Positions 196 through 6,725 of a stretch of DNA of 64,000 nt are shown piece by piece. Position 1 is the stretch's first letter; each line of letters starts with the position of its first letter. The position numbers and the translations under genes are program-made. Location: positions 620,001 to 684,000 of the forward strand of contig NZ_JAJTWU010000002.1 in the NCBI RefSeq assembly GCF_021353265.1, in the 5' to 3' direction. The notes beneath the pieces are model-generated. The model was not told the DNA's origin, searched no databases, and worked only from the letters and a program-made list of their open reading frames with translations. Source of the stretch: Pelomonas cellulosilytica (GTDB taxonomy: Bacteria; Pseudomonadota; Gammaproteobacteria; Burkholderiales; Burkholderiaceae_C).

Positions 196-576
196 GTGAA
201 CGCTTTGCAGCAGGAATGGCTGGCACTGCAGAGTCAGCATGAGCGGTACGAAGCGCTGGCGCTCGCCGTGAAGCTGGTGGCTTTTGCGGCCACGGTACTG
301 GTTTCGGACAACACGCTGGCCCTCGCGCTGCTGGTGCTGCTGTGGCTGCAGGAGGCCGTGCTCAAGACTTTCCAGGGCCGGCTGGGCGATCGGCTGCTGC
401 GGGTCGAGGCCGCGTTGAAGGCCGGCACGGAATTGCCAGCGATGCAACTGCACAGCGATTGGCTGGCCATCCGCCCTCAGGGTGTCGGCCTCGCGACGCA
501 ATACTTGAAGAGCGCGCTGCGTCCGACCGTTGCGCTGCCGTACCCACTGCTGATGCTGTTGATCGTGCTGGCCTGA
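196..576 (+). CDS. small hypothetical membrane protein
   Basis: 126 residues from a GTG start; the preceding bases CTGGAGTCTTGAA give a weak ribosome site. Residues about 20-55 form one or two hydrophobic helices and residues about 107-126 another, so it is probably a polytopic inner-membrane protein with a short polar middle. It lies 51 bp after the ABC-F gene on the same strand and could be cotranscribed. I do not recognise a family. Codon use looks like that of its neighbours. It converges with the receiver-domain gene, whose stop is only 18 bp away. Confidence 0.6.
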   Translation: MNALQQEWLALQSQHERYEALALAVKLVAFAATVLVSDNTLALALLVLLWLQEAVLKTFQGRLGDRLLRVEAALKAGTELPAMQLHSDWLAIRPQGVGLATQYLKSALRPTVALPYPLLMLLIVLA

Positions 577-594
577 CGGCCTGGCAGCCGGCGT

Positions 595-1215
595 TCACGC
601 CGGTTGCAGCTTCTCCAGCGGCACGAAGCTGTTCTGGCCCTTGAGCTGCACGACGGTTTCGCCGGATCTGTGAACGACGTACTGCGCCACATGTACGGCG
701 CCGTTGAAGTGCACCTTGTCGCCCGGCTTGATGAGCGGCAGCGGGGGCATGACGGGCAGCTGCGCGCGCGGTGTTGGCCGTGCGCTGCGCACCACATCGC
801 GTACCTGGCTGTGCAGGCCAGGCGCGCTCCTCGCCAGTGCGTCCAGTGAGCGGCTCACTTCCGCCTTGAGCTGCTCGGCTGTGAAGGGTTTCTTCAGCAG
901 GAAATGCGCGCCGTGGGCTTCGGCCTCAAGTTGGCGCTCGGGCGTCACGTCGAAGCTCAGCAGTGACAGCTGCAGCGCCGGCTGCACCTCGCGCAGCCGC
1001 TGGAACAGTTGCAGCCCCGTCAGCGGGGCCTTGGCGAACCAGTCGGTGATGAGGAACTGGGGCTTGAAGACCAAGCCTTGCGCCAGCGCGGTGTCACTGT
1101 CGGCGCAGCACAGGATTCTGTCTGCCGCGAAGCCGTGGCCCTGCAGCAGTTGGCGTGCAAAGGCCTGGACACCGGCCAGAGGATCTACAACAAGGAATTT
1201 CAACGGGTCGCGCAT
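595..1215 (-). CDS. response regulator receiver protein with unusual C-terminal domain
   Basis: 206 residues. Residues 5-125 are a CheY-like receiver: a single acidic residue after the first strand (Asp11), the phospho-acceptor candidate Asp58 in LITDW, and Lys108/Lys109 in LLKKPF. The usual Asp-Asp pair of the acidic pocket is reduced to one Asp, so metal binding may be weaker. After an Ala/Arg/Pro-rich linker the last 50 or so residues form a small beta-rich stretch (KPGDKVHFNG, then VVQLKGQ) that resembles no common DNA-binding output domain. No kinase gene is adjacent, so this looks like an orphan regulator, perhaps acting by protein contact. Confidence 0.75.
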   Translation of the reverse strand: MRDPLKFLVVDPLAGVQAFARQLLQGHGFAADRILCCADSDTALAQGLVFKPQFLITDWFAKAPLTGLQLFQRLREVQPALQLSLLSFDVTPERQLEAEAHGAHFLLKKPFTAEQLKAEVSRSLDALARSAPGLHSQVRDVVRSARPTPRAQLPVMPPLPLIKPGDKVHFNGAVHVAQYVVHRSGETVVQLKGQNSFVPLEKLQPA

Positions 1216-1319
1216 GTCACATCGGGGGCCGCAGCCGGTTGCGGTGCCTGAGGCGACTTATTTTGCGGGCAGCTTGTGCGGGTTCCGTCGAAAAGCAGCG
1301 GGGCGCCGGGAATTTTTTG

Positions 1320-1682
1320 TCAGCACTGATAGCGGCAGAAGTCCGCCCGGAGTCCGCTCGATGTGCGAGCCAGGTAGAGCAGTACGGGTTCTCCCGTGTC
1401 TCCTGTTAGCGTGTGCAGGCCGTCGCGAATGTCGTCCGGCAGCAGGCCCTCGAAGCCGAGGCTGAACTGCTCGCCCGGCTGGTTTCCATGCTGCGTGTCC
1501 ACTGATTTCAGCGTAACCATATGGCCTTCCACCGCAAACGCTTGGCCCAGGTGAGCCTGCCAACTGGCCTGCCCGGACAGGCCTCCCAGGCTGGGGCGCG
1601 TGGCCGCCAGTGCAGTGGACGCACCGGCGGCGGCAGCCAGCACGCTCGCGCTGCTTTTCAGGAAATTGCGTTTGTTCATCAT
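1320..1682 (-). CDS. exported DUF6916-like protein
   Basis: About 120 residues. The N-terminus reads MMNKRNFLKSS and is followed by an Ala-rich hydrophobic stretch ending in ALA, which is a signal peptide with a Tat-like KR-x-FLK motif. The mature part has a GEQFSLGFEG motif that matches GRAPFSLMFEA in the 105-residue protein encoded at 3773-4090, so I regard the two as paralogues of the DUF6916 type. The ATG at 1682 overlaps the GNAT stop in an ATGA arrangement; a second ATG follows at 1679. It is the last gene of the seven-gene operon and the only one apart from the PEP-CTERM gene with an export signal. Molecular function is unknown. Confidence 0.7.
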   Translation of the reverse strand: MMNKRNFLKSSASVLAAAAGASTALAATRPSLGGLSGQASWQAHLGQAFAVEGHMVTLKSVDTQHGNQPGEQFSLGFEGLLPDDIRDGLHTLTGDTGEPVLLYLARTSSGLRADFCRYQC

Positions 1683-2176
1683 GGCAGGCACTCCTCGGGC
1701 TGCGGGGCTGGGGCCGGCCGGAGCATGGGCTGGTACAGGCCCTGTGGCTCGCCCTCGGGAAGAAAGCCGAGCCGCTCGTAGAGCCGCCGGGCGGGGTTGT
1801 GGATCTCGACCTGGATGCCCAGGTGACGGCCCGACGGAGCCGCCTCGTCCATCAGCGCGCGCAGGCAGCGTGTTCCGAGACCCTGGCCGCGCCAGTCGGG
1901 CAGCAACGTGATGTCCAGCACGTGCAGGCGGTCGGGCCGGGCGTCGACCCACAGCCGCCCGGCCACCGCGTCGTCTACGAGGATGAGTTGGCAGAGGGCG
2001 TGCGGGAAATGCCTCCGGTAGTGCTGTTGCTGGGCCTGATGCTGCTGGGTGACGAAGGCCTCGCACTGCGCGCGTGGCCAGCCTGTCAGTGCCAGTTCGT
2101 CGGTGCGAGTGCTGGCGTAGATGGCCAGTTGCCAGGGGTCGTCGCCGGGCGTCGCGGTGCGCAGTCGGTAGTCCAT
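1679..2176 (-). CDS. GNAT family N-acetyltransferase
   Basis: 165 residues. The acetyl-CoA pyrophosphate-binding motif RGQGLG is at 96-101 and is followed by an Asn at 127 and the RLYERLGF helix at 131-138, the standard GNAT C-terminal motifs. Known family role: transfer of an acetyl group from acetyl-CoA to an amine. The substrate cannot be read from sequence. It sits 17 bp after the third collar protein and overlaps the exported DUF6916-like gene by 4 bp, so it is translationally coupled inside the operon. It may modify a product of that operon, which is inference. Confidence 0.85.
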   Translation of the reverse strand: MDYRLRTATPGDDPWQLAIYASTRTDELALTGWPRAQCEAFVTQQHQAQQQHYRRHFPHALCQLILVDDAVAGRLWVDARPDRLHVLDITLLPDWRGQGLGTRCLRALMDEAAPSGRHLGIQVEIHNPARRLYERLGFLPEGEPQGLYQPMLRPAPAPQPEECLP

Positions 2177-2193
2177 GGCGCCTCGCCCCGCGT

Positions 2194-2709
2194 TCAGCCG
2201 CGGGGCGGGAAGACGCCCTGCATCGCGATGCAGAAACTCAGCGCCTGGAAGGGCTGCCGGTTCTCATGCGCCTGACTGCTGCCGACCGCGCCGATGGCGG
2301 AAGCATCCATCGGCGCTGCCGCTCCAGGAAGGTGGTACAGATTGCCGCTACTGCCGGGCGCCATCAGCATGCCCGTCGGGGTGGTTGCCGAGGGTGTGAT
2401 GCCGGCCATCAGCGCGTGGCTGTGGCTGGGCATCTCCTGCGGCAGCAGCGTTACGGAGGGCGCGCCTGCCGTCTCGCCGAGCACCCGGTCGCTGAGGCCC
2501 GGACCCTGGCCCTGGCCCATCGCGAAGCTGCCGTCCAGGTTGGGAAGCGCGAAGTTGGACATGCCATTTCCGCCGTAAGTGGTGCCGAGCAGCGAAAAGA
2601 GAGCCGTGTTCTGGCTGATGGGCAGCAACTGGCCATCGCAACGCGCCCAGCCCTTGGGTGCGAAGTTGTAGGGCATGACGCGGATTTCGGCGACGAAGGG
2701 GTTGGACAT
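2194..2709 (-). CDS. phage tail collar domain protein (microcystin-dependent protein family), copy 3
   Basis: 171 residues. The N-terminus carries the family features: a strand-rich FAPKGWARCDGQ segment at 16-27, then SLLGTTYGGNG at 39-49 and a FALPNLDG strand at 53-60. The C-terminal half holds a SHSHALMAG region and ends in LSFCIAMQGVFPPRG, the typical hydrophobic closing strand. The family is named for the collar domain of short tail fibres, but many bacterial members lie outside prophages, as here. There is no signal peptide. Compared with copies 1 and 2 it has NLDGSFAM in place of the usual DLRGR, so the domain core has diverged. Function is unknown. Confidence 0.85.
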   Translation of the reverse strand: MSNPFVAEIRVMPYNFAPKGWARCDGQLLPISQNTALFSLLGTTYGGNGMSNFALPNLDGSFAMGQGQGPGLSDRVLGETAGAPSVTLLPQEMPSHSHALMAGITPSATTPTGMLMAPGSSGNLYHLPGAAAPMDASAIGAVGSSQAHENRQPFQALSFCIAMQGVFPPRG

Positions 2710-2719
2710 GCCACGCTCC

Positions 2720-3238
2720 TCAAGTGGGTGACGGGTAGATGCCGTACAGCGAGATGATGTAGTTGACGGTCAGCGTCGGCGCCATGTTTTCGTGGGGCTG
2801 CTGACCACCCCAGACGCTGGTAATGGCGCCGCTGGCCATCGGCGTCGTGGCCGGACCGGGGCCGTAAGTGGCTCCCGTTGTGGTCGCCAGCAAGTTGCCA
2901 CCGGGCGCCCCTAGGTTGGCTGCCGCCGTGCTGGCGATTGCGGGATGGCTGTGCGCGGGCGTCTGGCCGGACTGCAGAGTCACGCTCTCGGTGCCGCCAA
3001 TCTGGCCGATGGTTCGCGGTGACAGTCCGGGCCCCTGGCCTTGGTGAACCGGCACGCGGCCGCGCAGGTCTGGCAGCGCGAACGTGTTCTGGCCGTCACC
3101 GCCATAAGTGGTGCCGATCAGGTTGTACAGCGTCTCGTTTTCGGCAATCGCCACCAGCTGTCCCTGGCATAGCGCCCAGCGGTCGGGCGCAAAGTTGCCG
3201 GCGAAGAGGCGGATCTCGCCTAGGTAGGGGTTCGACAT
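2720..3238 (-). CDS. phage tail collar domain protein (microcystin-dependent protein family), copy 2
   Basis: 172 residues with the same plan as its neighbours: MSNPYLGEIR start, FAPDRWALCQGQ, LIGTTYGGDG, ALPDLRGRVPVH, a PAHSHPAI histidine motif in the middle and a closing VNYIISLYGIYP. The gaps to the flanking copies are only 15 and 10 bp. No signal peptide or membrane helix is visible, so the protein is made in the cytoplasm or exported by a route that needs no cleavable signal. It is clearly a paralogue of the products at 2194-2709 and 3254-3763, but the variable middle differs, suggesting different partners for each copy. Confidence 0.87.
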   Translation of the reverse strand: MSNPYLGEIRLFAGNFAPDRWALCQGQLVAIAENETLYNLIGTTYGGDGQNTFALPDLRGRVPVHQGQGPGLSPRTIGQIGGTESVTLQSGQTPAHSHPAIASTAAANLGAPGGNLLATTTGATYGPGPATTPMASGAITSVWGGQQPHENMAPTLTVNYIISLYGIYPSPT

Positions 3239-3253
3239 GTCGATCTCCTCGGG

Positions 3254-3763
3254 TCAGTCGCGGCTGGGGAACATGCCGACCAGTGCGATGGCCCAGCTGA
3301 GCACCTGAAAGGGCTGCATGTTGGGATGCGGTTGGCCGCCCACGTTGGGGGCGATGGTGCCCGGGTCCATCACGGTGGCGCTACCGGCCGTCGCATAGCG
3401 GTCGACACCGCCGCGCCCTTTGGTGGCGGGTACGGCGTTGCCCGGGGCGTTGGCGTTGGCCAGTTCGCTGGTAGCGACCAGCGTGTGCGTATGGGGGGGG
3501 ATCTGGCTGGTGCTCAGCGTGACGGCTTCCTGCCCGCTCGACAAGCCGAGCGGCAGGTCCGTACTGGAGTGAAGGGGCGCGCGGCCGCGCAGGTCGGGCA
3601 GCTTGAAATTGGTCACGCCGTTGCCGCCGTAGGTGGTGCCCAGAAGCGAGAAGAGGGCCTGGTTCTGCTGTATTGGCAGGATCTGGCCATTGCAAAGCGC
3701 CCAGCCCTTGGGTGCGTAGTTGAAGCTCATCAACCGAAGCTCGCCGAGGAATTGATCGGACAT
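3254..3763 (-). CDS. phage tail collar domain protein (microcystin-dependent protein family), copy 1
   Basis: 169 residues and first of the three copies in transcription order. It starts MSDQFLGELRL, then has NYAPKGWALCNGQ, SLLGTTYGGNG, KLPDLRGRAPLH, an IPPHTHTL histidine motif and a closing LSWAIALVGMFPSRD. The PxHTH motif is characteristic of collar and microcystin-dependent proteins and may bind metal at a trimer axis, as in short tail fibres (family knowledge, not shown here). The preceding bases AGGAGACCTTC give a good ribosome site for the ATG at 3763. There are no phage structural genes nearby. Confidence 0.87.
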   Translation of the reverse strand: MSDQFLGELRLMSFNYAPKGWALCNGQILPIQQNQALFSLLGTTYGGNGVTNFKLPDLRGRAPLHSSTDLPLGLSSGQEAVTLSTSQIPPHTHTLVATSELANANAPGNAVPATKGRGGVDRYATAGSATVMDPGTIAPNVGGQPHPNMQPFQVLSWAIALVGMFPSRD

Positions 3764-3772
3764 GAAGGTCTC

Positions 3773-4090
3773 CTAGCCGAACACGGCTTCGTATTGCACG
3801 CCCGTCGCGGTCCGCGCGATGGGCACGAGGAAGATGTCCATGCTGCCCATCTGCGCGTGCTCCAGCCGATAGATGCGCTGTGGCAACGCGGGCTCGGGCG
3901 CTTCGAACATGAGGCTGAAAGGGGCGCGTCCTTCGGGAGGCGCCCATTGGCCCGGCTTGGCTTCGATGAGTCGGGCGGTCAGGCGGCCAGCTTCGCCGAG
4001 TTGCAGCGTGAACACGCTGCCAACGAGGGGCTCGAACTGTGCCAGCGTGATCGTGCCGTCAGGCACGTCGGCGCGCCGCGCCAGCGCCAA
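3773..4090 (-). CDS. DUF6916-like protein, cytoplasmic form
   Basis: 105 residues without an export signal. It reads as a compact beta-rich domain with PFSLMFEAPEPA in the middle, YRLEHAQMG and IFLVPIART near the end and a YEAVFG terminus, matching the pattern of DUF6916 proteins. The annotated ATG overlaps the PEP-CTERM gene by 32 bp; a GTG at 4066 would reduce the overlap to 8 bp and is a plausible alternative start. It lies 9 bp before collar copy 1. Such small domains often accompany collar-protein triplets, in my recollection. The biochemical role is unknown. Confidence 0.7.
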   Translation of the reverse strand: MALARRADVPDGTITLAQFEPLVGSVFTLQLGEAGRLTARLIEAKPGQWAPPEGRAPFSLMFEAPEPALPQRIYRLEHAQMGSMDIFLVPIARTATGVQYEAVFG

Positions 4091-4778
4091 GAGCTGCCAC
4101 CAGGAACAACGCGAGCGAGGCGGGTTCCGGCACCCTGTTGCCCGGGTCTGTGGGGCCTGGCCCGTTGCCGTTGTCCTGGGTGATCAGCGTGATTAGGAAG
4201 TCGGCGTGATCCTCGCTGCTGCCGATGTTGATACCCCGGTCCCTGAAGAGAATGTCGTCGAGGTAGAGGCTGACGGTGTCGGCGTCGATGAGATTGACGA
4301 GGCTGGCCGCCGAGACGGAGGGGGCCAGGCCGCTGACGCCGCTGTCGGCGAAGCCGTCGAAGGTGGTGACGCTGAGGCCGACAATGGTCTTTCCGGCAAT
4401 GCTGAGCCCGTCAAACTCGTAGCGTGCGTGGTCAAAGGGCAAGCCCAGGTAGCCGGTGATGCTGCCTGCAAGGGTGACGTCTCCCGCAAAGGCGCGTACG
4501 CGGATGGTCTCGCCAACGAAGGTGACCTCCTCGCCGGCCAGCATCCAGGTGCTTACTGCCCCACCGTCGCCGGTGTGGATGCCCGTGGCCAAATTGGCCG
4601 CGCTGACCAACTGGGACACGTTGATCGGCGTCGAGTCGCCCACGACGCCGAGTGGAGCAATCAGCTTGACGGTGATGTCGCTCTGGAAGCCGGCGAGCGC
4701 CGGTGGGGCGCACATCGCGATCACCGAGCCAATGAGGGCGCCGAGCAGTCGGCGGGCGGAAGATGAATCGGGTCTCAT
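4059..4778 (-). CDS. PEP-CTERM sorting domain protein
   Basis: 239 residues. Residues 1-29 form a signal peptide ending in PALAG. The C-terminus holds VPEPASLALF, a hydrophobic helix and the basic tail ARRRA: the PEP-CTERM signal recognised by exosortase/EpsH-type sorting enzymes in bacteria that make exopolysaccharide. The middle is beta-rich and low in Cys, as expected for a surface or biofilm-matrix protein. The start is well placed behind GGGAGGCGCC. It is the first gene of the operon carrying the collar proteins, 99 bp downstream of the MocR stop. The exosortase gene itself is not in the window. Confidence 0.85.
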   Translation of the reverse strand: MRPDSSSARRLLGALIGSVIAMCAPPALAGFQSDITVKLIAPLGVVGDSTPINVSQLVSAANLATGIHTGDGGAVSTWMLAGEEVTFVGETIRVRAFAGDVTLAGSITGYLGLPFDHARYEFDGLSIAGKTIVGLSVTTFDGFADSGVSGLAPSVSAASLVNLIDADTVSLYLDDILFRDRGINIGSSEDHADFLITLITQDNGNGPGPTDPGNRVPEPASLALFLVAALGAGAARRRA

Positions 4779-4877
4779 GGCGCCTCCCTAGATATGGGCT
4801 GGCCCGGAGTTGACTCGCCTTGGAGGCCCTTCGCCAGTGGCCTTCCCCGCGATTGAGGGGGCTGAGATGCGCAGAAA

Positions 4878-6311
4878 TTAGGGAGTCGCCGAGTGCCCCG
4901 AGATGTCGTCCGCGCACGCGCGCAAAAGACGCCAAAAGGCCGGGTCTTGCGACGTGGCCATGTTGATGCGCATCAGTGATCCGGGGCATCGCGTGGCGCT
5001 GAACAGCGCGCCGGGAGCCGTCAGCCAGCCGGCGTCCAGCAGCGGCTGGGCGAGGCGTTCGGTGTCGACGCCGGCGTCCAGCCAGCCGAACAGCCCGTCG
5101 GGCGGCGCTGCCCACCGGAAGCCCTGCCTGGCCGCGAGCGTGGCCACACGCTGGCGTGCCTGCGCCAGGCGCTCCCGCAAGCGCTGGGCATGTCGGCGCA
5201 AACGCCCCTGTTCCAGGCACAGCGCCACGGCGCGCTCCATCACCGGCGAGCTGGTCAGCCCGTCCAGCAGCTTGGCGTCGGTCAGCGCACCCAGCCGCTC
5301 GGGTGCTGCAGCCAGGTAGCCCACGCGCCAGGCCGGCGTCAGCACCTTGGAGAAGCCGCTGACGTAGACGACGCGGCGCAGCCCGTCCAGCGCGGCCAGC
5401 CGGGGCACGTGCTCGGCGGCGAGGAAGCCGTAGCTGTCGTCCTCGACGATGGAGAAGTCGTGCTCGTCGGCCAGGCGAAGCAGCTTGTGGGCGGTGGCCA
5501 GGTCCAGGCTGTGACCCGTGGGGTTGTGCAGCACCGGCACGGTCAGGTACAGGCGCGGTGCGTGCTCGGCGGCCAGCGTGGCCAGCACGCCCAGGTCCGG
5601 GCCGTGCACGCCGCGTGGCACCGGCAGCAGCCGGATGCCGGCCTGCGTCAGCCGCGCAAAGATGATGGCCCAGCCGGGGTCGTCGACGAGCACGGCGTCG
5701 CCCGGCTGCAGTTGGGTGCGAATCAGCAGGTCCAGCGCGTGCGTGGCGCCATTCGTCGTCAAGATTTGCGCCGGGCTCGCGTGGATGCCCAGGTCGGCCA
5801 GCCGCTGCGACAGCGCCGCGCGCAGCCGTTCGTCGCCGCTGGGGTCGCCGTAGCTGACCTGCAGCGACTGCGAGTCGGCCTGGTTGAGCCGGCGCAGCGC
5901 GGACTGCAGCAGCACCGGGTCCAGCCACTCGGCGGGCAGCGTGCCGAGGCCCGGCGAGCGGCCTGCGTCGGCTTCGAACATGCCGCGGATGAGGGCCGTC
6001 GCGTCGACCGGCGCTTGGCGTGTGGTGGCGAGCGGCTTGGGGCTGCGCGAGGCGGCAGGCCGCGTCTCGCGCACGAAGAAGCCGCGCTGGCGGCGCGCCT
6101 CCAGCAGGCCGGCAGCCTGCAGCTGGTCGTAGGCGGCAACGACGGTGTGCGGGCTCACGCCATGCTGGCGCGCGCAGTCGCGCACCGAGGGCAGCCGGGC
6201 GCCGGGCAGCAGCAGCCGCTCGCGGATGCGCTGGGCGAACCGCTCGGCCAGTTGGCCCGCTAGGGGCTCGCTGGCGCCGCGTTGCAGCGGCGGGTGTGTA
6301 CCGGTGGGCAT
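4878..6311 (-). CDS. MocR-type regulator (GntR HTH fused to aminotransferase fold)
   Basis: 477 residues. Residues 15-80 are a GntR winged helix (LPSVRDCARQHGVS at 40-53, then the recognition helix). Residues about 105-470 are an aminotransferase class I/II domain with LHNPTG at 261-266, EDDSYGF at 290-296 and the PLP lysine Lys322 in GFSKVLTPAWR. This is the MocR/PdxR architecture, in which PLP or an amino acid adduct tunes DNA binding. The ATG at 6311 was chosen because the GntR domain begins right after it; upstream in-frame codons read through the operator region. It diverges from the DUF2917/racemase/aminotransferase genes and probably controls them and itself through the palindrome at 6314-6351. 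Confidence 0.88.
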   Translation of the reverse strand: MPTGTHPPLQRGASEPLAGQLAERFAQRIRERLLLPGARLPSVRDCARQHGVSPHTVVAAYDQLQAAGLLEARRQRGFFVRETRPAASRSPKPLATTRQAPVDATALIRGMFEADAGRSPGLGTLPAEWLDPVLLQSALRRLNQADSQSLQVSYGDPSGDERLRAALSQRLADLGIHASPAQILTTNGATHALDLLIRTQLQPGDAVLVDDPGWAIIFARLTQAGIRLLPVPRGVHGPDLGVLATLAAEHAPRLYLTVPVLHNPTGHSLDLATAHKLLRLADEHDFSIVEDDSYGFLAAEHVPRLAALDGLRRVVYVSGFSKVLTPAWRVGYLAAAPERLGALTDAKLLDGLTSSPVMERAVALCLEQGRLRRHAQRLRERLAQARQRVATLAARQGFRWAAPPDGLFGWLDAGVDTERLAQPLLDAGWLTAPGALFSATRCPGSLMRINMATSQDPAFWRLLRACADDISGHSATP

Positions 6312-6313
6312 GG

Positions 6314-6351
6314 CAGTACAGATTCGGCGTGTGATGCAGTGGACTGTACTG
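6314..6351. promoter_or_regulatory. inverted repeat, candidate MocR operator
   Basis: CAGTACAG at 6314-6321 and CTGTACTG at 6344-6351 are perfect 8-bp inverted arms separated by 22 bp, so their centres are 30 bp apart, near three helical turns. The element lies 2-40 bp upstream of the MocR start and 69-106 bp upstream of the divergent DUF2917 start. Paired half-sites of this kind are usual for dimeric GntR/MocR regulators. Binding is inferred from position and symmetry. Confidence 0.6.
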
Positions 6352-6419
6352 TTGGTGTATCGGTGCGTGTTCCTAGACTGAGCGCACGCCGGGGGTATCC
6401 GCCGGCGCATTGAATCTGC

Positions 6420-6725
6420 ATGGAGGCGCTCGCGATGGACGAACGATTCACGACCCGGCTGGGTCCCGGCCAGGCGCTCACGCTGGCCGCCGGCCGCACG
6501 CCGCGGCGCCTTGTCGTGACCTGCGGCCGGCTGTGGCTTACGGTTGGCGGCAGCGCGGACGACCACTGGCTGCTGGCCGGCGATGGGTTGACGCTGGAGG
6601 CCGGCCAGCCGGCCGTCGTCGAGGGCTGGCCCGAGGCTGCGTTCCACCTATTGCATCCGGTGGCGCAGCGCCGCGCCCCCGGGCTGCGGACCGGCATGGG
6701 CCTGCCGCTGGGGCAGGGCGCATGA
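6420..6725 (+). CDS. DUF2917 domain protein
   Basis: 101 residues; a second ATG at 6435 (MDERFTTRLG) is an alternative start. The sequence is a cupin-like beta stretch: RRLVVTCGRLWLTVGG, then DDHWLLAGDGLTLEAG and a closing VVEGWPEAAFHLL. This matches DUF2917 proteins, which often sit beside MocR-type regulators and amino acid genes in Burkholderiales; function is not established. Its stop overlaps the racemase start in an ATGA junction, so the two are translationally coupled. Confidence 0.75.
   Translation: MEALAMDERFTTRLGPGQALTLAAGRTPRRLVVTCGRLWLTVGGSADDHWLLAGDGLTLEAGQPAVVEGWPEAAFHLLHPVAQRRAPGLRTGMGLPLGQGA

Follow-up and report, generated by a model that had tools for sequence, protein, structure and literature searches.

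A conserved bacterial gene cassette combining three tail-collar proteins with DUF6916 proteins, an acetyltransferase and an exosortase-sorted protein: a candidate surface-display system in Pelomonas cellulosilytica

Phage fibres are trimers that bear a shaft and are carried on virions. The Collar domain (PF07484) is common to the receptor-binding domain of the T4 short tail fibre gp12 (1OCY), to the phage long tail fibre 8KEC and to the gene cassette described here; profile matches of the collar reach E 7e-10 for 8KEC, with the HxH motif aligned, and E 1.6e-5 for 1OCY. Unlike phage fibres, the cassette comprises three different shaftless chains encoded in a bacterial operon, together with a GNAT acetyltransferase, DUF6916 proteins and a surface protein. 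Exosortase/PEP-CTERM sorting is a further point of likeness, in that the first gene of the cassette has a sorting tail and the genome encodes exosortases; we are aware of no description that links PEP-CTERM genes with collar genes. Likewise, the choice-of-anchor Z repeat (NCBIfam) is matched by giant neighbours of the collars at two other loci, and choice-of-anchor D is the annotation of one plasmid neighbour. The likeness is that of one module held by different anchors, although to our knowledge the definition of the choice-of-anchor families takes in just the large protein and no collar triplet. RhiB of the Rhizobium leguminosarum rhiABC operon is also a bacterial collar protein encoded in an operon, and is assigned to COG4675 with a collar domain in the available text of two reports (PMC6969944; PMC13133039). 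That operon differs in having a single collar gene and in being regulated by quorum sensing, and the portions of the reports at hand make no mention of a triplet, a GNAT or DUF6916. No description of the gene set as such was found in the literature searched, which leaves out most subscription papers.

The window (the whole 64,000 nt stretch of P. cellulosilytica DNA analysed) carries the seven cassette genes on the minus strand, from 4778 down to 1320. They are collinear and tightly packed, with intergenic distances in transcription order of -8, 9, 15, 10, 17 and -4 bases when the first DUF6916 gene (D1) is started at GTG 4066 instead of TTG 4090. The ORF coordinates confirm the original prediction of seven same-strand genes with small gaps or overlaps, and the claim that these form one unit is supported by the retention of the full seven-gene order in 11 of the 15 carrier genomes described below. 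By eye, five of the seven genes, namely PEP-CTERM, C1, C2, C3 and D2, have an AGGAG-like sequence ahead of the start. Within 1150–4960, weak tests detected neither terminator-like sites on the minus strand nor promoter-like sites on either strand, and no Rfam match was found in 500–6500. Amino-acid-changing differences are rarer than silent ones in all seven genes (pN 0.16–0.33, pS 0.34–0.41), the contrast being least clear for the PEP-CTERM gene.

The three collar proteins, C1 (class A; 3254..3763, 169 aa), C2 (class B; 2720..3238, 172 aa) and C3 (class C; 2194..2709, 171 aa), match PF07484 with 97.7, 96.3 and 89.4 bits, respectively, against a cut-off of 24. Since the Collar domain begins at residue 7 or 8, the collars lack an export signal, as had been stated for all three, and no N-terminal shaft was found in these proteins of 169–172 aa; each is a single tip-like domain. 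The HxH motif is HTH at residues 91–93 of C1 and lies at residue 96 in both C2 and C3, and H91 and H93 of C1 are invariant among 78 aligned collars. For comparison, the best 80 of 92 loci found with the class A collar and six peptide patterns were fetched. As one of these patterns held HTH, the collar that retrieved each locus may be biased towards this motif, whereas the other two collars of each triplet are free of such bias. With hits of >30 bits and >350 bases counted, the 80 loci and the window contain 82 collar runs, of which 66 are exact triplets; HxH is present in 198 of the 198 triplet collars, compared with 7 % in shuffles. Judged by sequence, this motif resembles the histidines that bind metal in phage fibre tips.

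By sequence, the triplet collars also divide into three old classes. Profiles built from four Burkholderiales triplets assign one A, one B and one C collar to 44 of the 62 other triplets, where 5000 shuffles gave a mean of 13.2 and a maximum of 26. A second profile set, built from four triplets of Bacillota (three Paenibacillus and one Tumebacillus, picked since the first profiles had called them BAC), gave one of each in 38 of 62 (shuffle mean 13.9, maximum 26), and the two profile sets agree on the label of 152 of the 198 collars. After hub correction, best matches across phyla are one-to-one in 572 of 1350 pairs (0.424), as against a mean of 0.203 and a maximum of 0.228 in 30 re-deals under a within-phylum null; the uncorrected best-hit test is weak (0.263 across phyla versus 0.222 by chance). 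Iteratively rebuilt profiles drifted, with one-of-each assignments falling from 48 to 15–31 of 66, a weakness of the classification, and were replaced by the fixed-seed profiles.

The two DUF6916 genes lie at opposite ends of the collar–acetyltransferase segment. D1 (3773..4066, 97 aa), the gene of which overlaps the PEP-CTERM gene by 8 bases, matches PF21880 with 104 bits (cut-off 27), and no signal sequences were seen by eye on D1-like proteins. Its predicted fold is a helix and six strands (pLDDT 91.5, pTM 0.82). No solved relative of D1 was found by sequence, and no PDB fold reached E 0.001 against the model; the best, a norovirus protease barrel, is not significant (E 0.15, TM 0.52), and no function of DUF6916 is read from it. 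D2 (1320..1682, 120 aa) matches the same family weakly, at 31.3 bits, yet over the cut-off, and carries a twin-arginine-like leader (MMNKRNFLK...ALA, a KRNFLK variant, by eye). Such leaders with RR, KR or RK were seen by eye in 10 of 11 D2-like proteins. In the comparison of gene order between loci, the leaders of L106, L107 and L112 were not counted. The Tat-like copy occurs in a minority of loci only. The acetyltransferase (1679..2176, 165 aa) has an RGQGLG acetyl-CoA-type motif and matches PF00583 with 51 bits (cut-off 20.7). RimI identity was considered and rejected, the NCBIfam rimI equivalog scoring 33.6 bits against a cut-off of 86.4.

The distribution of the cassette was surveyed in 60 genomes, including that of the window and with 20 from its genus. 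DUF6916 occurs in 15 genomes, all 15 of which carry a tandem collar triplet, and the triplet is found in none of the 45 genomes without DUF6916; the genomes are related, so these do not amount to 60 independent cases. Within the genus, the cassette occupies one chromosomal site in 11 carriers and the same site is empty in the 9 non-carriers (flank protein AspRac_6410, which holds a stop, was left out of this comparison). Within the genus, the predicted gene order is kept, including both DUF6916 genes. Outside the family the second copy is mostly absent (11 D2-like versus 43 D1-like proteins in the loci compared). Genome G008 keeps the collars in the absence of both D1 and the GNAT, hence neither is strictly required. 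Further afield, single-domain collars in exact triplets are found again in at least 10 phyla, among them Pseudomonadota, Bacillota, Actinomycetota, Planctomycetota, Chloroflexota, Deinococcota and Bacteroidota; a GNAT of one subfamily and a DUF6916 protein often accompany them. A member of the GNAT subfamily lies near the collars in 50 of the 67 loci with three or more collars. None of the nine Bacteroidota loci has this GNAT subfamily or DUF6916, and the 12 loci without a triplet have the GNAT in 6 and DUF6916 in 5.

The first gene of the cassette (4059..4778) encodes a surface protein of 239 aa, with an N-terminal signal-like stretch by eye and the tail VPEPASLALFLVAALGAGAARRRA. The tail matches TIGR02595 with 22 bits (cut-off 16) and falls just below the Pfam cut-off for PF07589 (20.4 versus 20.7 bits). 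Twelve other carriers have a homologue in this position, which with the window makes 13 of 15, and an exosortase was found in all 13, the window's genome having two. This supports the surface link originally proposed. The co-occurrence with exosortases had likewise been put forward as a check; it holds for every carrier of the PEP-CTERM gene, but exosortases are found in 19 of the 20 genus genomes whether or not the cassette is present. The claim that an exosortase-sorted protein belongs to the cassette stands in the window's lineage and is not universal: among the loci examined, a PEP-CTERM protein was detected with the cassette in the window's genus, in two further genera of the family and on an Aquabacterium contig, and nowhere else (the tails of L112 and L113 were not counted). 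The exosortase-sorted protein is thus a lineage-specific part of the cassette.

Elsewhere the triplet often adjoins a giant protein of Ig/cadherin/TIG repeats that bears S-layer domains, an autotransporter barrel or an IPTL-CTERM tail, and this extends the support for a surface link beyond the window's lineage. Surface-like genes were flagged by a composition rule of the author's own, which 1 of the window's 24 long ORFs satisfies. Among genes encoding 400 aa or more, the surface-repeat-like ones number 25 of 80 within 1 kb of the cassette, compared with 1 of 32 beyond 2.5 kb; the 6 kb flanks shorten the distal bin, an effect that restriction to genes of this length reduces without removing. 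The test was passed next door in only 27 of the 67 loci. The flagged neighbours carry Ig, cadherin, TIG, SLH or autotransporter domains, and one has an IPTL-CTERM tail; the tail of at least one of the 28 (L028:8439-10541) suggests a spurious ORF. Of ten plasmid records, chosen by taxon from the 40 listed among 72 matches, nine have a neighbour of about 900 aa or more, and nine have a GNAT, the tenth having a formyltransferase.

These observations would fit a host-owned surface-display cassette, in which a three-subunit, metal-bound tip is combined with a lineage-specific surface protein, GNAT modification and help from DUF6916 in assembly or export; the probability of this reading is put at roughly 0.5. 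The original interpretation is supported in part. The three single-domain collars, one of each class, would fold and assemble in the cytoplasm as a small complex, which is most likely a heterotrimer sharing a six-histidine metal site and comparable to a phage tail fibre tip minus its shaft. The tip, which would have a binding role, would be displayed at the cell surface together with an anchored partner, here probably the exosortase-sorted PEP-CTERM protein and elsewhere the giant Ig/cadherin/TIG proteins with their various anchors. The GNAT may acylate a component of the cassette, the likeliest target being the collar N-termini, which are often Met-Ser or Met-Ala. DUF6916 proteins may act as assembly or export adaptors, and the Tat-like leader on one copy would suit export of a folded, metal-loaded complex. 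A stronger form, in which a widespread appendage tip is an obligate A+B+C heterotrimer with a six-histidine metal site, N-terminally acylated, exported folded with help from DUF6916 and mounted on a host-specific anchor, is tentative and rather unlikely.

The absence of signal sequences from the collars and, by eye, from D1-like proteins would also suit a complex acting inside the cell, for example as a metal-dependent sensor or store, with the surface neighbours coincidental or only co-regulated. RhiA, whose gene shares an operon with that of the collar protein RhiB, serves as a cytoplasmic marker and was not detected in the supernatant, in the available part of one report (PMC2275737). Against this stand the enrichment of surface neighbours, the PEP-CTERM linkage, the Tat-like leader on one DUF6916 copy and a Ruegeria pomeroyi collar protein found in the exoproteome, as given in the accessible text (PMC4949626); an intracellular role is therefore regarded as unlikely. 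Much less probable is a role in peptide natural-product pathways, with the collars as carriers or immunity factors for modified peptides. It would account for nine alphaproteobacterial loci and an Azospirillum plasmid in which asparagine-synthetase/lasso-peptide-type genes replace the surface protein beside the triplet. Eight of the nine asparagine-synthetase genes have a family match, HPr-kinase-like and sulfotransferase genes occur at some of these loci, and the plasmid has PqqD, lasso B2, oxygenase and asparagine synthetase B genes. Such genes were, however, encountered in some alphaproteobacteria only, and in neither the window's lineage nor the other nine plasmid records.

Two further readings start from phage. 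The collars could serve as the tips of fibres that belong to a contractile injection system or tailocin with its genes elsewhere in the genome: the Collar domain is a typical feature of phage fibres, most PHROGs matches are to tail families, and genes of Acaryochloris marina annotated as tail sheath and baseplate share one condition-dependent table with collar genes in the part of the report available (PMC11633204). Tail-sheath matches occur in 11 of the 15 triplet carriers versus 16 of the 45 non-carriers, but within the genus the association is gone (8/11 versus 8/9). Among the 15 carriers, four lack a sheath match and a fifth (G026) falls below the cut-off, both matches in the window's genome are weak and on other contigs, and no D1 relative was found in 50,697 phage records. 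By ORFs and family matches, no tail genes lie beside the collars within the window. Injection-system tips are regarded as quite improbable. A prophage remnant, or a domesticated piece without a function of its own, is more improbable still. It would agree with three collar genes described within a phage region of Caulobacter K31 in the available excerpt (PMC4221894), with relatives of C1 in 355 of the 50,697 phage records, all at <60 % identity, and with a short viral-collection contig (L125, 5.5 kb) bearing a full-length relative at 48 %. A pattern scan of IMG/VR yielded seven relatives, however, and the order conserved over genera, the clean presence or absence at one site and the pN/pS contrast all argue against it. 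No capsid, terminase, portal, packaging or lysis families are among the top 25 listed for 81 neighbouring genes (of 86 non-flagged neighbours, five ORFs that overlap the PEP genes or a further gene were excluded), and two tail-fibre PHROGs match one neighbouring gene each. The prophage remnant was thus rejected, as the original prediction had anticipated, and collar triplets found only inside prophages, which it had named as evidence to the contrary, did not occur.

If the surface-display reading is correct, a set annotated as ‘tail fiber protein’ and easily mistaken for prophage debris would be a bacterial surface structure, widespread across phyla yet unstudied. It would unite the Rhizobium rhiB gene, the Ruegeria exoprotein and the light-regulated Acaryochloris genes in one testable system, and would raise the questions of the tip's ligand, the exit route of a signal-less complex and the target of the acetyltransferase. 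Collar (COG4675) proteins are listed in a soil metaproteome, in the portion of that report available (PMC5579227), and therefore some of them appear to be expressed in nature.

The seven genes at 1320–4778 of the window form a compact cassette, as originally predicted; they lie on the minus strand, with successive gaps of −8, 9, 15, 10, 17 and −4 bases at the six junctions. Read from 4778 to 1320 they encode a PEP-CTERM protein, D1 (a signal-less DUF6916 protein), the collar proteins C1, C2 and C3, a GNAT acetyltransferase and D2, a DUF6916-like protein with a twin-arginine-like leader that scores 31.3 bits against the DUF6916 profile. The individual parts are known domains. No published description of the cassette was found in the literature searched, and to our knowledge a three-class collar triplet with a GNAT, DUF6916 and exchangeable surface anchors belongs to no known system. 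The cassette is read here as a host-owned, conserved, surface-linked system, with moderate confidence in the mechanism.

Among 60 genomes, the window's own and 59 related ones, DUF6916 is present in 15 (from five genera), and all 15 have a tandem collar triplet, a co-occurrence that overstates independence because the genomes are kin. Some collar match occurs in 8 of the 45 genomes lacking DUF6916; by profile matches, none of the 45 has a tandem triplet. The proposed search for the same gene set elsewhere recovered the complete order PEP–D1–C–C–C–GNAT–D2 in 11/15 carriers and a single site in the genus. One of the other carriers is without D1 and GNAT (G008), one is without D2 (G018), and in two the PEP gene is missing and the genes are arranged differently (G042, G049). 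The cassette is found in 11 of 20 genomes of the genus. In the ten further genus carriers it is flanked by homologues of the window's GntR-type regulator (4878–6377) and response regulator (595–1215), and in the nine non-carriers matches to both flank genes are separated by 133 to 285 bases. Thus, within the genus, the cassette is gained or lost as one unit at a single site. For every gene of the cassette, uncorrected comparisons of 10 or 11 sequences put mean pN below mean pS, although the difference is small in the PEP gene (0.33 vs 0.41), the least clear case. Across the genus the GntR-type regulator (81–87 % identity; 66 % for a contig-edge fragment in G011) is better conserved than the cassette (mean pairwise 52–73 %), and the response regulator (58–80 %) is about as variable.

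Collar triplets extend well beyond these relatives. A C1 scan of 84,980 species, from which the best 80 of 92 loci were taken, gives together with the window 82 runs of adjacent collar genes, 66 of them exact triplets, with a median spacing of 30 bases between collar domains. Going by record titles, many of metagenome bins, the triplets fall in Pseudomonadota, Bacillota, Bacteroidota, Planctomycetota, Acidobacteriota, Actinomycetota, Verrucomicrobiota, Chloroflexota, Thermodesulfobacteriota and Myxococcota, and Deinococcus plasmids add Deinococcota. Within the window's phylum, DUF6916 occurs in 44 of 398 sampled genomes. Near loci with at least three collars, the GNAT subfamily is found in 50/67 and DUF6916 in 41/67; neither is found in any of the nine Bacteroidota loci. 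In 12 triplet-less loci GNAT is present in 6 and DUF6916 in 5, so both accompany single or paired collars too. A Cytophagales contig (L054, 3040–11051) has at least 13 collar genes in a row, the final one cut by the contig end.

Position within the triplet clusters on the collar tree (41 changes vs 93.9 in shuffles). Profiles built from four Burkholderiales triplets sort 44 of 62 other triplets into one each of classes A, B and C, to which C1, C2 and C3 respectively belong (shuffle null: mean 13.2, maximum 26). Class order is ABC in 24/35 Pseudomonadota triplets and BAC in 4/9 from Bacillota; two consecutive ABC triplets occur in each of two loci (L065, L048; Novispirillum and an unclassified proteobacterium). 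Profiles from four Bacillota triplets, picked among those labelled BAC by the first profiles, sort 38/62 as one of each and match the first labels in 152/198 collars. Hub-corrected one-to-one matching across phyla reaches 0.424 vs 0.203 in the null. However, the uncorrected value is just 0.263 vs 0.222 by chance and iterated profiles drifted, both of which count against three classes. From these comparisons, we read the collars as three old classes, blurred later. A heterotrimer would explain the three classes; three different roles of the collars would do so too.

A phage origin has some points in its favour. The collar triplet of Caulobacter K31 is labelled a phage region in PMC4221894, and C1 relatives occur in 355 of 50,697 phage records. 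Identity is below 60 % in every such record, D1 has no relative among them, and a pattern scan of IMG/VR gave seven C1 relatives, one full-length (48 %, on a 5.5 kb contig). Capsid, portal and terminase families are absent from the top 25 listed for 81 neighbour genes of other loci; tail-fibre families of PHROGs account for two matches there, each to a single gene. In line with the earlier view that a prophage remnant is not supported, the cassette as a phage piece is disfavoured. Tail-sheath matches, a mark of injection systems, occur in 11/15 carriers (one under the cut-off) vs 16/45 non-carriers, but within the genus in 8/11 vs 8/9; four of the 15 carriers have none.

Unlike phage tail fibres, the window's collar proteins begin directly at the collar domain, a tip with no shaft. 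The collar profile has a match in 8kec, the long tail fibre of a phage (E 7e-10), in which the HxH motifs align; it also matches T4 gp12 (1ocy, E 1.6e-5) through the collar. The corresponding histidines in gp12 and gp37 bind metal on the trimer axis. HxH lies near residue 90 in 198/198 collars of the 66 triplets (7 % in shuffled sequences), although one of six locus-search patterns held the motif, which may bias one collar per locus and not the other two. Both histidines are invariant in a 78-collar alignment. Met-Ser, Met-Ala or Met-Thr N-termini are seen in 132/173 collar rows starting with Met (starts assigned by rule), which fits a putative role of the GNAT in acylating N-termini. A formyltransferase adjoins the triplet of some Bacteroidota in the usual place of the GNAT (L041, L056, L073, L140 (Spirosoma)), a hint of N-acylation as the common chemistry; in another (L080) its gene is about 2 kb away.

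DUF6916 is predicted to fold as a single helix with six strands (pLDDT 91.5, pTM 0.82), and no PDB relative was found by sequence, nor a significant one by fold search. As judged by eye, D1-like copies mostly begin just ahead of the domain, and 10/11 D2-like copies have a Tat-like RR, KR or RK leader. The Tat pathway exports folded proteins, and partners without a signal may travel along; a Tat-borne DUF6916 could therefore be a putative helper in the export of folded collar complexes. No other part of the proposal is as bold, and loci holding just the signal-less copy would need a different export route.

Published traces of the parts are scattered. A table in PMC11633204 groups Acaryochloris marina AM1_3684 and AM1_3686–3690 among genes with raised levels in low far-red light (log2 −3.2 to −4.0). 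Three of them are annotated as phage tail collar proteins, one as a putative acetyltransferase and the others as conserved hypotheticals; by annotation, the group looks like a version of this operon that is jointly controlled. Elsewhere, a Ruegeria pomeroyi collar protein is detected in the exoproteome (PMC4949626), a soil metaproteome includes COG4675 proteins (PMC5579227), Rhizobium RhiB is a collar protein (PMC13133039, PMC6969944) whose operon partner RhiA is cytoplasmic (PMC2275737), and Solibacter collar paralogues have a positive-selection signal (PMC3174227).

The original prediction of a surface system outside any prophage was for the most part sound. The gene set is conserved, and the first gene is a PEP-CTERM homologue in 13/15 carriers. 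The suggested exosortase co-occurrence holds in all 13 of these but does not discriminate, since 19/20 genus genomes, carriers and non-carriers alike, have an exosortase; the link is consistency and not proof. Outside the family the neighbour varies, yet surface proteins are frequent in this place. For genes encoding 400 aa or more, a composition rule of our own for repeat-rich surface proteins is passed by 25/80 within 1 kb of the cassette, 4/47 at 1–2.5 kb and 1/32 beyond (Fisher p 0.001, near vs far); it is passed at 27/67 loci, and many loci fail it. The 28 flagged genes include, with overlaps, 9 Big_9, 7 He_PIG, 7 SLH, 7 Cadherin_4, 6 TIG and 3 Autotransporter; one product ends with an IPTL-CTERM sorting tail and two have choice-of-anchor Z repeats. 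Ten annotated plasmid records were also compared, selected by taxon among the 40 listed out of 72. In 9 of them the triplet adjoins a gene for a large protein (about 900 aa or longer), annotated as YDG, choice-of-anchor D, Ig-like, putative Ig (2), cellulose-binding, beta-helix or hypothetical (2). The Deinococcus gobiensis record annotates just two of its collar genes. The anchor differs by lineage and the triplet is constant.

At nine alphaproteobacterial loci an asparagine-synthetase-like gene replaces the giant surface gene beside the triplet (L012, L020, L030, L032, L038, L045, L064, L072, L081); some of these loci also have HPr-kinase-like or sulfotransferase genes. An Azospirillum oryzae plasmid (L138) has such a gene together with PqqD, lasso B2 and oxygenase genes. 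Directly after the collars, an ABC-transporter-type substrate-binding protein gene is found in Bacteroidota (L017, L059, L062, L080) and Deinococcus (L132, L141).
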